IMG/VR virus record: IMGVR_UViG_3300005916_000012
Location: 1 to 28,500 of that record
Source of the DNA: a virus
Reading direction: 5' to 3' (one strand)
DNA: 28,500 nt
Part shown: positions 19,728-25,861 of the stretch, piece after piece
Position numbering within the stretch: the stretch's first letter is position 1
Layout of the letters: each line of letters opens with the position of its first letter
Translations under genes and position numbers: made by a program
The notes under the pieces: model-generated
Told to the model about the DNA's origin: nothing
What the model saw: only the letters and a program-made list of their open reading frames with translations
Databases searched by the model: none

Positions 19728-19981
19728 ATAAGAAACAATTAGGAACATTTAAGGATTGGATAGAGAATCATAGTGAGGTCTTAGATGACATAGATACTTT
19801 CTGGTATATACAGAATGTTATAGGAAGTATTTTAGGGTGGAGTAAGGAATACATTGAGTATGTAACTCGTTTAGAATCTTCTATTAAAAGAGAACCTATT
19901 AGGATGGAGGATTTACCAACTGTTGAACAATTAAGAGAAGAGGGGTTAGTAGAGTTTAACTTAAAAGATAAGGAAGAATGA
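19724..19981 (+). CDS. Small acidic protein, unknown (85 aa)
   Basis: GTG start inside the preceding stop. Helical and acidic (FKDWIENHSEVLDDIDTFWY; MEDLPTVEQLREEGLVEFNL). It ends in an ATGA overlap with TerS, so it is probably co-translated with the packaging genes. No family recognised. Confidence 0.5.
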   Translation: MNKKQLGTFKDWIENHSEVLDDIDTFWYIQNVIGSILGWSKEYIEYVTRLESSIKREPIRMEDLPTVEQLREEGLVEFNLKDKEE

Positions 19982-20406
19982 AAAAAAGAGAACTGAATCC
20001 AGAGCAGGAATTGTTTTGTAAGTTGTTTGCAACTACCAAAGAGTTCTTCGGAAATGGCACTCAAGCATACATAGAGGCATACAATATTGATGTAAAGCAT
20101 AAAGGTGCTTATGCAGGGGCTAGAGCGAGTGCTAGTCAATTACTAACAAAGACTAACATCCTGAAGAAAATCAACGAATTATTAGAACTTGGAGGACTAA
20201 GTAATGAACGAGTAGACAAGGAGTTATTGTTTCTAATAACTCAAGATGCAGAATTTTCAGCAAAACTTGGTGCTATCAAAGAATACAATCAGTTGAAGAA
20301 CAGGATTCAAAAGAAGTTAGATATAGGACTGGACAATATAGAAGGGATCAAGATAGAAATAATCAACCCAAGGGAGGAAGATGTACCAGAAACTCCAACT
20401 GACTAA
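19978..20406 (+). CDS. terS: Terminase small subunit
   Basis: 142 residues of the Terminase_2 type (PF03592): LNPEQELFCKLFATTKEFFG, then NGTQAYIEAYNID, ARASASQLLTKTNILKKINEL, a helical oligomerisation section (NERVDKELLFLITQDAEFSA; AKLGAIKEYNQLKNRIQKKL) and an acidic tail. TerS binds the pac/cos site and feeds DNA to TerL. It is directly upstream of TerL and overlaps its start by 26 bp. The starting ATG has the purine-rich leader GATAAGGAAGA. Confidence 0.88.
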   Translation: MKKRELNPEQELFCKLFATTKEFFGNGTQAYIEAYNIDVKHKGAYAGARASASQLLTKTNILKKINELLELGGLSNERVDKELLFLITQDAEFSAKLGAIKEYNQLKNRIQKKLDIGLDNIEGIKIEIINPREEDVPETPTD

Positions 20407-20755
20407 TGTATATCAAAGGACTGTAAAGGTAGCAGATGACTACAGGATAATATGCCATGAGGGTGGTTCTAGATGTTTCTCTGGTGAACAAAAAGTAGTT
20501 ACAAAAACAGGTGGTAAGAAAATCTCTGATGTAAAGGTGGGTGATTATGTACTTTCTGGTGTTAATAAAGAGTATAAGAGAGTGAAAAACATCTTCAAAA
20601 TGGAGAATGATAAACCTTGCTTTGAGATAACATTGAAAGATGGAAACAAGATAAGGGCAACTCAAGACCACAAGTTTTGGTACGAAGGGGGTTGGCATTC
20701 TCTAAAACATATGGTAAAATGTTGGAATGAAAGAAACATGGAAAACAATACCTAA
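20381..20755 (+). CDS. terL-N: Terminase large subunit N-fragment fused to split-intein N-half
   Basis: 124 residues. Residues 1-31 are the TerL N-extein, ending in ICHEGGSR, the first half of the Walker A loop. Cys32 begins an intein: CFSGEQKVVTKTGGKKISD, then VKVGDYVLSG (block A), then DGNKIRATQDHKFWYEGGWH (block B, with the T-x-x-H pattern). The ORF then stops (20753-20755) before any block F/G. GGGAGG (20372-20377) lies 3 nt before the ATG. The missing C-terminal splicing blocks are at the start of the 21251 ORF, in the same frame phase but after an intervening gene. Trans-splicing would join Arg31 to Ser45 of that protein. Confidence 0.9.
   Translation: MYQKLQLTNVYQRTVKVADDYRIICHEGGSRCFSGEQKVVTKTGGKKISDVKVGDYVLSGVNKEYKRVKNIFKMENDKPCFEITLKDGNKIRATQDHKFWYEGGWHSLKHMVKCWNERNMENNT
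20474..20752 (+). mobile_element. Split intein, N-terminal half (93 residues)
   Basis: From catalytic Cys1 (codon 20474-20476) to the stop. Blocks A and B are complete. 93 residues is typical of naturally split intein N-halves. The last ~20 residues overlap the start of the homing endonuclease ORF in another frame. Confidence 0.9.
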
Positions 20756-21266
20756 TTTCTCAAGATATGAAGCATCTAGTCTTGGGAGGTTAAGGTCTTT
20801 GAATTATAAGAGGACAGGAAAAGTAAAGATACTTAAACCTGCCTGTTCATCTGGTGGGTATATGAAAACAGTATTGTTAAGAGATGACGGAAAGTATAAG
20901 AGTTGGACAGTACATCTATTTGTGATGATGGCTTTCGTAGGAGTGAAGCCAAGTGGGTTGGAAGTTAACCATAAGAATGGGATTAAAACTGACAATCGGG
21001 TTGGCAACCTAGAATATGTTACACATAAATACAATGTACAACACTCTTTTGACAATGGGTTTCAATTACCATTAAAAGGGGAGGATAATCCGACATCTAA
21101 ACTAACAGAAGAAAATGTTTTGGAAATCAGAAAGTATGTAAAAGGACAGAGGGAGAAAGGAAACAGATATTACGGTAGGAAAAAACTTGCCGAGAAGTAT
21201 GGAGTTAGTGATGGATACATAAAAGATATTGTTTCAAGAAGGAGGGGAATATGGAGTCATATATAA
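20727..21266 (+). CDS. NUMOD4/HNH homing endonuclease between terL fragments
   Basis: 179 residues. The N-terminus WKTIPNFSRYEASSLGRLRS is the NUMOD4 motif, followed by GGYMKTVLLRDDGKYKSWTV and the HNH_3 core VHLFVMMAFVG ... GLEVNHKNGIKTDNRVGNLE with YVTHKYNVQHSF. The C-terminal part (KLTEENVLEIRKYV; GRKKLAEKYGVSDGYIKDIV) is a DNA-binding HTH region, the usual build of free-standing HNH homing enzymes. It overlaps the N-fragment ORF by 29 bp and the C-fragment ORF by 16 bp, each in a different frame. Such enzymes cut intein- or intron-less alleles and spread the inserted DNA. Confidence 0.92.
   Translation: MKETWKTIPNFSRYEASSLGRLRSLNYKRTGKVKILKPACSSGGYMKTVLLRDDGKYKSWTVHLFVMMAFVGVKPSGLEVNHKNGIKTDNRVGNLEYVTHKYNVQHSFDNGFQLPLKGEDNPTSKLTEENVLEIRKYVKGQREKGNRYYGRKKLAEKYGVSDGYIKDIVSRRRGIWSHI
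21240..21245 (+). promoter_or_regulatory. Shine-Dalgarno AGGAGG for the terL C-fragment
   Basis: A perfect AGGAGG lies inside the endonuclease gene's 3' end, 5 nt before ATG 21251. It indicates that the C-fragment is translated independently and argues against the break being only a sequencing artefact. Confidence 0.85.
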
Positions 21267-21382
21267 CACTAGATGATATTGTTGGGGTAAAAGAGATTGC
21301 ACTTGATACTGTTTACGATATAGAGGTAGAAGATAACCATAATTACTATTTGGATTGTGGAAAACAGCTTCTAGTACACAAC
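21251..21382 (+). mobile_element. Split intein, C-terminal half (44 residues)
   Basis: Residues 1-44 of the C-fragment. Block F: VYDIEVEDNHNYYLD. Block G: LLVHN, with penultimate His43, terminal Asn44 and Ser45 as the +1 nucleophile. All class 1 splicing residues are present. 93+44 residues is the size of a mini-intein without endonuclease. Confidence 0.92.
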
Positions 21383-22504
21383 TCCTCTAAGACATGGAGC
21401 ATATTCTATTTCTGGTTATTAAAGGCACTAGCAGGTGAGAAGTTCACCCTGACTATAGCAAGAAGTAAAATGACATGGGTTAGAGATTCGTTAGTACCAG
21501 ACTTTGAGGAAATATGCGAAAGGAATGGATATCCTGTATCCCCTAATATAGATAAAAAGAGGAATGCTCAGGAGTATAAAATAAAGAATGCAACCTTCCA
21601 GTTTGTAGGATTAGATGATACTAAGAAAATTCACGGACAGAAAAGAGATCACCTCTGGCTTAATGAAACAATGGAGATTACCAAAAAGGATTTTGACCAG
21701 TTAGAAATGAGAACGAGTGGTTTAATTATTCTGGACTACAATCCTTATGATGATTCTCATTGGGTGTTTGATTTACAGAAAAGAAAAGATGTAAAGAAGA
21801 TACACTCTACAATGCTTGATAATCCTTATAATCCACCTGCTATCATTAACAAGATTAAAGGATACGAACCTACACCAGAGAACATAGAGCAAGGAACAGC
21901 AGATAACTATATGTGGGAAGTGTATGGACTAGGGAAGAAGGCAAGGTTGCAAGGTGCTATATATACCAACTGGGATGTTGTTGAGGAGATACCTACTGAC
22001 TGTAAACTGATTGGGTATGGGTTGGATTTCGGATATACCAACGACCCTACAGCCATTGTTGCACTCTATACAAAGGACAATGAGTTGTACTGGGATGAGT
22101 TACTGTATGAAACAGGATTACTGAATGAGGATATAGCAGAGAAGATGGGTTATTTAATGCCTGTGAGAGATATATACACCTATGCAGATAGTTCAGAACC
22201 AAAGAGTATTGAAACAATAAAAAGAAAGGGGTTCAACATTAAAGGTGCAACTAAGGGTGCAGACAGTATCAAGTTCGGTATTGACTTCTTGAAGGGTTAT
22301 AAAATGCACATAACCAAGAGGAGCATTAACCTAGAGAGCGAGTTGAGGAAATACAAATGGGCAGAGGATAGATCAGGCAAATCATTAAATGTTCCAATAG
22401 GGAAGAACGACCATGGTTGTGATGCCATGAGGTATGTTGCTACAATGTGTTTGCAGAAGAGAAAAGCAAGGTCATTTACGAGGAAGGCGAAAGTGTTTGT
22501 TTAA
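21251..22504 (+). CDS. terL-C: Terminase large subunit C-fragment with split-intein C-half
   Basis: 417 residues: 44 of intein, then 373 of TerL beginning SSKTWSIFYFW, the second half of Walker A. The ATPase part has a Walker B-like HLWLNETMEI. The C-terminal RNase H-like nuclease has acidic residues in GYGLDFGYTNDPTAI, YADSSEPKSIETI and KNDHGCDAMRYV. The spliced product would be 404 residues, normal for PBSX/SPP1-type TerL, which pumps and cuts DNA at the portal. Without splicing this fragment lacks a complete P-loop and should be inactive. Confidence 0.92.
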   Translation: MESYITLDDIVGVKEIALDTVYDIEVEDNHNYYLDCGKQLLVHNSSKTWSIFYFWLLKALAGEKFTLTIARSKMTWVRDSLVPDFEEICERNGYPVSPNIDKKRNAQEYKIKNATFQFVGLDDTKKIHGQKRDHLWLNETMEITKKDFDQLEMRTSGLIILDYNPYDDSHWVFDLQKRKDVKKIHSTMLDNPYNPPAIINKIKGYEPTPENIEQGTADNYMWEVYGLGKKARLQGAIYTNWDVVEEIPTDCKLIGYGLDFGYTNDPTAIVALYTKDNELYWDELLYETGLLNEDIAEKMGYLMPVRDIYTYADSSEPKSIETIKRKGFNIKGATKGADSIKFGIDFLKGYKMHITKRSINLESELRKYKWAEDRSGKSLNVPIGKNDHGCDAMRYVATMCLQKRKARSFTRKAKVFV

Positions 22505-22542: not shown

Positions 22543-24081
22543 ATGCCAAAGAAGACAGTTAAAAAGATTGATAAGTTCCCCAAAGAAGATTCCATTTTAA
22601 GATTAAGACAATACGGTGTCTATGAGAGGTTGCTTGAAGGAGATCATTACTCTGCATATATGTCAGAGTTAGGTAGTAAGTTCTCAGATAGGTATAAATA
22701 CCTGAAGTATATGACCTGCAACTTTGCAGGGCTTTTATCTAAGGTAATAGCAGATGTACTATTCGGTGAGAAAGTAGTAATTGAATCCAAGGAAAAGAAT
22801 AAAAAGGAACAGGATTTTATAAATGCCATTGTGCAAGAGAACAACCTGAGCACCCAATTATACGAATCAGCATTGTTAAACTCTGCAAGGGGTGATGCAG
22901 TTCTAAGGGTTAGGGTAGAAGATAGCCAGATAAAAGTAGAGGATATAAACCCTGCAATGTACTTCCCAGAATTAACATCAAACTTCAGAGAAGACCCAGA
23001 TGTGAAAGTTCTAGCATGGAGAGAAGAGTTCCAGAAAGAGGGTGGTAAACTAGAATCATATTTGATTAAAGAGAAGTATACAAAGGGATTGATAGAAACA
23101 TCTGTATATCTAATGAAAGAAAAGAGTAGTCAGGAGGTATTGAAAAAGGTAGCAGTAAAAACATACAATGAGAAGACAGGTAAGAGTTATAAAGAAAGTG
23201 TAAAGACAGGGATTGAGGAGATACCTATTGTTCATATCCCTAACTTCAGGACTAGCAACAAGTATTTTGGAGCATCAGATTATCAGGATCTACAATCATT
23301 GTTCTTTGGTATAAACAACAGAATGACTAAGGTTGATAATATCCTTGATAAGCACAGCGACCCTATATTAGCAGTTCCAGAGGGTATTTTAGATGAAGAT
23401 AATAATGTTAAGAAAGAAGCACTCGGAATGGTTGAGAAAGGGGAAGATGGAGAGATACCAGAGTACATCGTATGGAATGCCAATTTAGAGGTAGCATTCA
23501 CCCAGATAGATGAGATGATTAAAATGATATTCCTATTCGGAGAGGTATCACCAGATGTAGTTGGAATGGATATGGGAAAAGGTGGAAAGGTAGTAGAGAG
23601 TGGCAGAGCATTGAAACTAAGAATGTTAAGAACCCTTGCCAAGAAGAACAGAAAAGCATTGTACTACGAATTAGGTATACAGAAGGCAATAGAGATTGCT
23701 TCATTGTTCGCTAAAAAAGGAAATAAGGCAGGCGAGGTTGGATATAAAGGAGAACCAATAATCCCTAATGTAATATTTGCTGATGGTGTTGTAGATGATA
23801 AGGTTGAGGAAATAACAAACGAATCAGTTAAGATTGATAGTGGTTTAACTTCAAGGAAGAGAGCAATCAAGGTTATAGAGGATATGGATGACGAAGAGGC
23901 AGATGCAGTATTGAAGGAGATTAAAGAAGAGAACAAAGAGAAAGCAGATATTTCAGATGAAGCATTTCATTTAAGAGCAAGAGTAGATGAACAACAAGGA
24001 GTTAAGAACGAGGGTCAAACTGTTCAGCTCAATAGTGGACAAGACAACAAAAAGAATAACAGCAAGAATACTAGCAAGTAA
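22543..24081 (+). CDS. Portal protein
   Basis: 512 residues of the SPP1 gp6-like portal type (PF05133/PF04860-like). It has an N-terminal region with RYKYLKYMTCNFAGLLSKVIADVL, a wing/crown region around RGDAVLRVRVEDSQIKVEDI and MYFPELTSNFREDPDVK, and the central TGIEEIPIVHIPNFRTSNKY followed by the stem block SDYQDLQSLFFGINNRMTKV. The C-terminus is acidic and low-complexity. Dodecameric portals form the DNA channel and dock TerL. The gene overlaps the MuF-like gene by 95 bp, a long overlap; a later MuF start is possible. Confidence 0.88.
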   Translation: MPKKTVKKIDKFPKEDSILRLRQYGVYERLLEGDHYSAYMSELGSKFSDRYKYLKYMTCNFAGLLSKVIADVLFGEKVVIESKEKNKKEQDFINAIVQENNLSTQLYESALLNSARGDAVLRVRVEDSQIKVEDINPAMYFPELTSNFREDPDVKVLAWREEFQKEGGKLESYLIKEKYTKGLIETSVYLMKEKSSQEVLKKVAVKTYNEKTGKSYKESVKTGIEEIPIVHIPNFRTSNKYFGASDYQDLQSLFFGINNRMTKVDNILDKHSDPILAVPEGILDEDNNVKKEALGMVEKGEDGEIPEYIVWNANLEVAFTQIDEMIKMIFLFGEVSPDVVGMDMGKGGKVVESGRALKLRMLRTLAKKNRKALYYELGIQKAIEIASLFAKKGNKAGEVGYKGEPIIPNVIFADGVVDDKVEEITNESVKIDSGLTSRKRAIKVIEDMDDEEADAVLKEIKEENKEKADISDEAFHLRARVDEQQGVKNEGQTVQLNSGQDNKKNNSKNTSK

Positions 24082-25861
24082 GTCGTACTCACTATTAGAG
24101 AAGCAGAGGATTCTTAAAGGGATAGATGGAGAACTAAGGAAGATGGTTAGTCAAACCGACCCTTGGTTTCTTTCTAACTTGAGGTATGCATACAAGAGTG
24201 GTATGTCAGATGACTTTGCATATTTCAAGAGATTAGGTGTTAAGAACATGAAATATACTGATTATGATTATGATTCTATTAAAAATCTAGCAGGCAATTC
24301 TAAGAAACTATTTGATGAGGCAGTAAGTGGAATAGGGAGATCCTCTAGTAGTATCCTATCAAAAGGAACTAAGGCGAAACTCCAAGCGATAATCTCAGAG
24401 GGGAGAGTTGAGAAGGGAACATTGAGAGGTATCAAAGGAATGATGTTAGATTATATGGATAAACAGGGAGTGTATTTGTTAGATTCAGCAGGAAGGAAAT
24501 GGGATGCAGTTAAATATTCAGAGATGTTTGCTAGAACCGAGATGATGAATACTTACAATCAGGGAGCAGTAAACGGAATGTTAGGAAGGGGAATGGACTT
24601 GGCAGAAATAACCAGCTACTCAGGTTGTCAATGTGATATATGTCTAGAATGGGAAGGTGAGATAGTTAGTTTAACAGGAAAGACAGAGGGGTATCGTACC
24701 CTAGATGATGCTTATAATGCAGGGGTATTTCATCCTAACTGTTTCAGTGATGATACAGAAGTTTACACGAATGAGGGTTGGAAATTGTTTAAGAACTTAC
24801 AGGGAGAGAAGATAATGTCCATAGACCCTGAAACTCAAGAAATGGAATGGGTTGATTATGTAGAACATATAGCATACGAGTATAAGGGCAAGGTGTTTTC
24901 GCTCAAGAGTAACTCATTTGATTTAATGGTTACACCAGACCACATGATGTATGTAGGAACTAATAGTCATGGGAAAGGTGGGAGAGGATATATAAAGTGG
25001 CAGTTAATGTCTACAAGTGAGGCGATAAAAAAGAATCATAAACAGTTAAGGACTGCTAACTGGGAAGGCAAGGAGGTTGAATCCCCATTAGAGGGTATAG
25101 ATATTAAACAGTATGCATTCTTGTTAGGTGCTTATCTAGCAGAGGGTCATATAGATAGGAATAAAGTGATTATCTCTCAAAGTGAGCCAAGAAAGAATAG
25201 GTACAGGAAAGAACTATTGGGAATGGGTTTCTATGAAAACAAGAACAGGTTTATTATCAGTAATAAACAATGGGCAAAACATTTTAAGAAGTTCGGCAAA
25301 AGTTATGAAAAATATATGCCAGAGTTTGTGTTGGAAGCGATACCAGAAATTCTTAAAGAATTATTAAGAGGTTATCATCTAGGAGATGGCTCTGTAAACA
25401 AAAGCAAGTATAAGGGATTTGAATCTAAATCTAAAACCTATTTTACCTCAAGCGAAAGGTTGGCAGGACAATTAGGGGAAGCAATATTTAAGGTCGGTAA
25501 GTATCCAAGTTTTAGGAAACCACCAAAGCCAAGGGCTGTGAAGTTTAGTAATGGGGAATATCTACCGAAGCACGCCTGTTGGGTAATAAGAGAGAATAAC
25601 TCTAAGAGGGCGTACTACAATCTAAGTCCAAGTATTGCTTATAGGGGAGTTCAATTAAAGAAAGTAGATTACAATGGGTATGTTTATGATGTAGAGTTGG
25701 AAAAGAATCATGTGTTGTTAGTAAGAAGAAACGGCAAGACAGCATGGAGTGGAAACTGTAAACATAGATTCAAACCATACTACAAACCATTGAAAGAAGA
25801 ATACGATTCAGGGAATCAAGTTTTTAGTAAAAGTGGCAGACTATTGCATTCTATCTTGTAG
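23987..25861 (+). CDS. MuF-like minor head protein with LAGLIDADG intein
   Basis: 624 codons. Extein residues 1-251 and 591-624 make a 285-residue SPP1 gp7/Mu F-like head morphogenesis protein. It has a helical N-terminus, ARTEMMNTYNQGAVNGML, SGCQCDICLEWEG, and the family's final HPNC motif. The intein (252-590) interrupts HPN^C. It starts CFSDDTEVYTNEGWKLF, has DLMVTPDHMMYV (block B), two DOD endonuclease motifs (LLGAYLAEG at 379-387; LLRGYHLGDG at 459-468) and YVYDVELEKNHVLLV (block F), and ends AWSGN before Cys591. The penultimate residue is Gly, not the usual His. The gene overlaps the portal gene by 95 bp; MuF proteins sit inside the head near the portal. Confidence 0.9.
   Translation: MNNKELRTRVKLFSSIVDKTTKRITARILASKSYSLLEKQRILKGIDGELRKMVSQTDPWFLSNLRYAYKSGMSDDFAYFKRLGVKNMKYTDYDYDSIKNLAGNSKKLFDEAVSGIGRSSSSILSKGTKAKLQAIISEGRVEKGTLRGIKGMMLDYMDKQGVYLLDSAGRKWDAVKYSEMFARTEMMNTYNQGAVNGMLGRGMDLAEITSYSGCQCDICLEWEGEIVSLTGKTEGYRTLDDAYNAGVFHPNCFSDDTEVYTNEGWKLFKNLQGEKIMSIDPETQEMEWVDYVEHIAYEYKGKVFSLKSNSFDLMVTPDHMMYVGTNSHGKGGRGYIKWQLMSTSEAIKKNHKQLRTANWEGKEVESPLEGIDIKQYAFLLGAYLAEGHIDRNKVIISQSEPRKNRYRKELLGMGFYENKNRFIISNKQWAKHFKKFGKSYEKYMPEFVLEAIPEILKELLRGYHLGDGSVNKSKYKGFESKSKTYFTSSERLAGQLGEAIFKVGKYPSFRKPPKPRAVKFSNGEYLPKHACWVIRENNSKRAYYNLSPSIAYRGVQLKKVDYNGYVYDVELEKNHVLLVRRNGKTAWSGNCKHRFKPYYKPLKEEYDSGNQVFSKSGRLLHSIL
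24740..25756 (+). mobile_element. Contiguous LAGLIDADG intein (339 residues) in the MuF-like gene
   Basis: From Cys252 to Asn590, with Cys591 as +1 nucleophile. Acidic residues Glu386 and Asp467 end the two LAGLIDADG helices in catalytic position, so the endonuclease may be active. The boundary restores HPNCKHRF. Confidence 0.9.

Follow-up and report, generated by a model that had tools for sequence, protein, structure and literature searches.

Endonucleases are usually stated to have invaded contiguous inteins and fragmented them, and the nucleases of the so-called fractured genes are reportedly Vsr-like. As cited in PMC11766414, the fractured genes (Dassa et al., 2009) comprise two gene fragments with intein halves and a free-standing endonuclease gene between them. 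The naturally split inteins GOS-TerL and AceL-TerL, which come from metagenomes and interrupt the large terminase subunit (TerL), are split atypically, with N-terminal intein halves (IntN) of 37 and 25 amino acids respectively, and GOS-TerL uses Ser1/Cys+1 (PMC11766414). Here we describe a 909-bp element at positions 20474-21382 of IMG/VR virus record IMGVR_UViG_3300005916_000012, a linear fragment analysed over 28,500 nt (hereafter the window). The element is very probably a mobile split intein in the TerL P-loop, for which we propose trans-splicing, homing by an HNH endonuclease and descent from a contiguous intein.

Both split TerL inteins and nuclease genes lying between split halves are already known, and the window adds a member to this established group; its own novelty is lowered by the precedents of GOS-TerL and AceL-TerL. 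It shares with the fractured genes, as they are cited, the two gene fragments, the intein halves and the free-standing endonuclease gene between them, but its nuclease is of the NUMOD4-HNH type, overlaps both fragments and supplies the start codon of the C-half. Like GOS-TerL and AceL-TerL it is a naturally split TerL intein from metagenomes; unlike them it has a canonical split, with an IntN of over 80 amino acids (codons 32 to 124) and Cys1/Ser+1, and assignment to their atypical type was rejected because IntN is far longer than 25-37 amino acids. The best match of IntN in both sequence and fold is the gp41-1 split intein (PDB 6qaz; phmmer 1.4e-7; Foldseek E=2e-4 with an AlphaFold model of mean pLDDT 64, which also resembles the MchDnaB and Npu DnaE inteins); gp41-1 has a similar canonical split position, but lies in a different host gene and is only about one third identical.

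Organization of the interrupted terL gene

The terL gene of the window is divided between two open reading frames (ORFs) in one common reading frame, each fusing an intein half to a part of the extein, with a free-standing nuclease gene between the halves; all features given here lie on the + strand. The N-fragment ORF (20381-20755; 124 amino acids), preceded by a Shine-Dalgarno-like AGGGAGG (20371-20377), encodes a 31-amino-acid N-extein ending in CHEGGSR (20381-20473), which is collinear with the uninterrupted TerL of a near-identical phage (L002 and L003), followed by IntN with blocks A and B, from Cys1 to the stop (20474-20752). The NUMOD4-HNH gene (20727-21266; 179 amino acids) overlaps the N- and C-fragments by 29 nt and 16 nt respectively and is read at +1 with respect to both. 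The C-fragment ORF (21251-22504; 417 amino acids) begins with a 44-amino-acid C-terminal intein half (IntC; 21251-21382) that contains blocks F and G and ends in LLVHN, and continues with the C-extein (21383-22501), that is Ser+1 and the remaining ATPase and RNase H-like nuclease regions (Terminase_3, 1.6e-14; Terminase_3C, 3.9e-16). The start codon of this ORF is part of an ATGG (21251-21254) built on the conserved Trp176 codon of the nuclease (TGG, 21252-21254), and an AGGAGG Shine-Dalgarno sequence provided by nuclease Arg-Arg codons (21240-21245) ends 5 nt ahead of the ATG at 21251.

In Pfam searches IntN matched Intein_splicing and Hint (3.2e-7 and 1.3e-4), the nuclease matched HNH_3 (2.3e-12, 46.8 bits) and NUMOD4 (5.4e-8, 33.4 bits), both above the family cut-offs, and the C-fragment matched the C-terminal end of Intein_splicing besides the two terminase families. 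Read together through the stops, the two halves scored 46.3 bits against a PF14890 cut-off of 35.8, which neither half reached alone. The catalytic intein residues are all intact: Cys32 (Cys1 of the intein), TQDH in block B, NHNYY in block F and HN|S at the C-terminal junction. An earlier reading of this DNA, made without database searches (the sequence-only reading), had proposed a naturally split intein with blocks A and B ending one fragment, F and G beginning the other, a complete catalytic set, a NUMOD4/HNH ORF in the gap overlapping both fragments, and a perfect AGGAGG for the C-fragment; the present analysis bears it out on each of these points.

The insertion itself is exactly delimited, since L002 and L003 carry an empty site: all of 20474-21382 is missing and an uninterrupted TerL of 404 amino acids reads GGSRSSKT, the same P-loop that had been predicted from joining Arg31 to Ser45 of the C-fragment. 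The predicted spliced TerL of the window (31+373=404 amino acids) equals in length the TerL of L002 and L003, with which it shares 90% identity; its ATPase and RNase H parts are 90% identical to those of L002 and 97% to those of L004.

We propose that two proteins are made, TerL(1-31)-IntN and IntC-TerL(32-404), and that the halves would assemble as a Hint fold and join Arg31 to Ser, with the 404-amino-acid TerL as the product. The C-half would be translated from the start that lies within the 3'-terminal part of the nuclease gene, where the Trp codon gives the TG of the ATG and the Arg codons give the Shine-Dalgarno sequence; the nuclease made from the overlapping middle ORF would cut intein-less terL and so spread the element by homing.

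The locus could instead be a decaying remnant in which the insertion has inactivated terL, the phage then relying on another terminase. No second terL was found within the 28.5-kb record, although, this being a linear fragment and not a complete genome, one could lie outside it; an intact terL elsewhere was what the sequence-only reading had named as evidence against a split gene. Decay is very improbable given the intact catalytic residues, the ATPase and RNase H parts, which are intact and as close to L004 and L002 as stated above, and the pattern of substitution by comparison with L008, an independent phage with the same layout. The dN/dS of IntC is 0.10 in this comparison; dS was saturated outside IntC and codon positions were therefore counted in the nuclease frame, where the differences (38/26/98 at first, second and third positions) fall mostly on third positions. 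Judged by these counts, the nuclease frame is under purifying selection. The suggestion of the sequence-only reading that the intein could set packaging timing finds no support in the present data.

Signs of mobility

Homing by the HNH protein is proposed because of a co-conversion-like tract, the empty-site allele and the patchy distribution of the element. The window and L002 show about 0-2 differences in most 100-bp bins over several kb, but 10 (5') and 18 (3') differences per 100 bp beside the insertion, with more out to -400; this cluster fits co-conversion during homing. A separate patch of ~30 differences at 21983-22182 (+600 to +800, in the RNase H domain) is apparently unrelated to the intein. 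In the comparison of the window with L008, amino acid identity is 68-75% for the intein halves and the nuclease but 55% for the TerL C-extein; that the element is more alike than its host protein is as expected of a mobile element.

Recurrence of the split

L008 has the same three-ORF layout, the same overlaps and the same Shine-Dalgarno and ATG, with a C-fragment only 57% identical to that of the window. Other split loci came to light in profile searches of contigs: L145, L146, L147, L150, L171, L233, L235, L236, L237, L241, L242 and L244, and one with the same gene order in a DnaB-like helicase gene (L190); L145, L146 and L147 are one phage from three samples, and the IntN of L233 is frameshifted in a contig of a metagenome-assembled genome (MAG). 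A single-query search of viral contigs with the window nuclease found no relatives, alignments being needed, and an early regular expression for intein blocks missed most inteins; relatives were therefore detected with alignment and profile searches. As these were keyed mostly on the HNH family, the loci listed here are a lower bound and give no estimate of frequency.

Between blocks B and G the intein frame of the window contains 18 stops, compared with 19.8 expected from synonymous shuffling of the HNH codons (p 0.29). The split loci with the nuclease at +1 or +2 carry 9-28 stops in this frame, near expectation, with somewhat low counts in L145 (p 0.006) and L008 (p 0.03). In 8 of 15 split loci the nuclease is at +1 with both halves in one frame, against 1/9 expected by chance (p 7e-5); other frame relations occur in L150, L235, L236, L237, L244 and L190.

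These observations bear on an alternative that the sequence-only reading had itself raised, a contiguous intein broken by two compensating indels; this would be one intein containing the HNH domain, and the break would have arisen in assembly. Since the nuclease frame overlaps that of either fragment, a join by two indels is conceivable; but the same split recurs in L008 and more than a dozen other contigs, the nuclease of the contiguous relatives described below is out of frame and not fused, the stop load of the intein frame is that of a random frame, and a strong Shine-Dalgarno and ATG are conserved at the same place. An assembly error of this kind is hardly credible, and the alternative was rejected.

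Contiguous inteins with a hidden nuclease gene

The same HNH family was found at +1 inside contiguous TerL P-loop inteins (L014, L016, which is partial, L025, L075, L076, L080, L082, L088, L170, L175, L176, L182, L232 and L239), and in contiguous inteins of other P-loop or related proteins (L179, L185/L188 and L189). Two of the latter sites read LPTG|SGKS, in a helicase-like protein (L185/L188), and ARR|TGKS (L179). In every contiguous locus the intein frame runs through the nuclease gene with 0 stops, compared with 3-13 expected from synonymous shuffling (p<=0.001, except for L014, 0.012-0.029, and the partial L016, 0.038). The comparison of the two classes therefore shows an intein frame that is kept free of stops in contiguous loci and no longer so in split ones; dual coding is thus held open over about 170 codons of the nuclease gene.

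In an AlphaFold model of the contiguous intein of L082, two confident Hint parts flank very-low-confidence residues 95-257, the shadow of the nuclease gene, and the Foldseek matches of the model are inteins. Among annotated phages none matched this intein together with its shadow linker, and searches with IntN yielded weak matches only, in other genes or in distant TerL inteins. The ShiLan-type insertion in a phage methylase (PMC11855218, 2025) resembles the contiguous relatives in having an HNH gene in an alternative frame of an open host ORF, but has no detectable intein domain, whereas the hidden nuclease of the contiguous relatives sits between intein blocks B and F. The window was rejected as a ShiLan-type hidden nuclease on account of the 18 stops in its intein frame, the open frame being a property of its contiguous relatives. 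In the open-licence literature searched we found no report of an out-of-frame HNH gene inside an intein.

A different HNH gene is nested at +2 in TerL inteins at a different site (L012:1609-2202 and L058:4282-4920), which in L012 is the RNase H motif GYGMDFGYS|C. In both, the intein frame is free of stops, where 3.1 and 2.7 would be expected (p 0.005 and 0.011); hidden nucleases therefore occur in at least two unrelated settings.

The start site of the C-half

In the split loci with a C-terminal Trp in the nuclease (n=13) the C-half start is formed by the last base of the codon preceding Trp and the TG of TGG. This triplet is ATG in 12/13 of them and TTG in L150, whereas in contiguous loci it is GTG, CTG or TTG and in 0/12 ATG (Fisher 2.7e-6, with related loci counted as independent). 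Upstream, the nuclease Arg codons yield AGGAGG or a similar purine-rich sequence in most loci. Free-standing genes of this HNH family also sit just upstream of intact terL (L064, L065, L166, L167, L172 and L240), and in three of these terL apparently starts at the same triplet (ATG in L065 and L166, TTG in L240). The 3' end of the nuclease gene thus looks like a portable translation-start module.

Origin of the split

The HNH tree contains a clade (support 100/99) with 13 split loci, the contiguous L232 and L239 and the free-standing L240 (an unlabelled row), and its starred branches need at least three changes of split label. Contiguous to split is the easier direction, because the reverse would need the removal of 9-28 stops, and the loci support a stepwise route from a hidden out-of-frame nuclease to a split intein. 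With some reserve we favour a model in which split inteins derive from contiguous P-loop inteins that carry an overlapping HNH gene out of frame and form a kind of their own: the R-R-R-x-x-W codons at the nuclease 3' end would act as a portable Shine-Dalgarno and start module, a single base change from NTG to ATG would free translation of the C-half, stops would then accumulate and the intein would become split. Most likely the ancestors of the window element were such contiguous inteins, in which stops were tolerated once the C-half had its own start. The idea of the sequence-only reading that the arrangement may preserve an intermediate in split-intein origin is to be shifted accordingly to the relatives of the window: the window is an end state, and the form that resembles an intermediate is a contiguous intein whose nuclease gene is out of frame.

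Alternatively, the intein was split before the HNH gene entered between its two genes, and the present order says nothing of how the split arose. The six free-standing copies before intact terL and the other frame relations of six split loci would suit such an insertion. We consider it unlikely, as contiguous inteins of the same HNH clade (L232 and L239) hold the nuclease inside, 8/15 split loci retain the frame arrangement of the contiguous form, and no split P-loop intein lacking the nuclease was seen in searches keyed mostly on HNH.

Several points weigh against our reading of the element and of its descent. Trans-splicing and HNH cleavage are predictions from sequence, and every locus comes from metagenomic or MAG contigs. 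The second patch of differences, from +600 to +800, means that recombination also occurs away from the insertion, and the HNH start sites show weak Shine-Dalgarno matches. The direction from contiguous to split is one that we infer; the significance values take related loci as independent, deep support in the intein tree is weak, and the tree of the intein halves, being short, does not show how many splits took place.

The loci form a graded series at one gene position, from a free-standing HNH gene before terL, through one hidden in a contiguous intein, to one between split halves, and suggest a concrete, single-base step between stages. The split loci also yield a group of canonical split inteins of the Cys1/Ser+1 type from a phage motor that is essential, and these may find use in ligation.

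Other features of the window and of related loci

The terminase small subunit gene (19978-20406; Terminase_2, 2.5e-6; phrog_51) overlaps the start of terL. A second intein (24740-25756), contiguous and with an in-frame LAGLIDADG domain, lies in the minor head protein gene (23987-25861) between the junctions HPN|CFSD and SGN|CKHRF; alongside the split HNH intein the phage thus has an ordinary one of the LAGLIDADG type. Elsewhere, a phage helicase-like gene (L047:2847-4072) is split by an intein with a GIY-YIG-looking nuclease ORF between the halves, and in the split intein of L042 a nuclease-like domain is fused to IntN. At 86-2017 the window encodes a 643-amino-acid protein built from dozens of repeats that resemble SERGLYIEG; it is probably a protein of the tail or surface.
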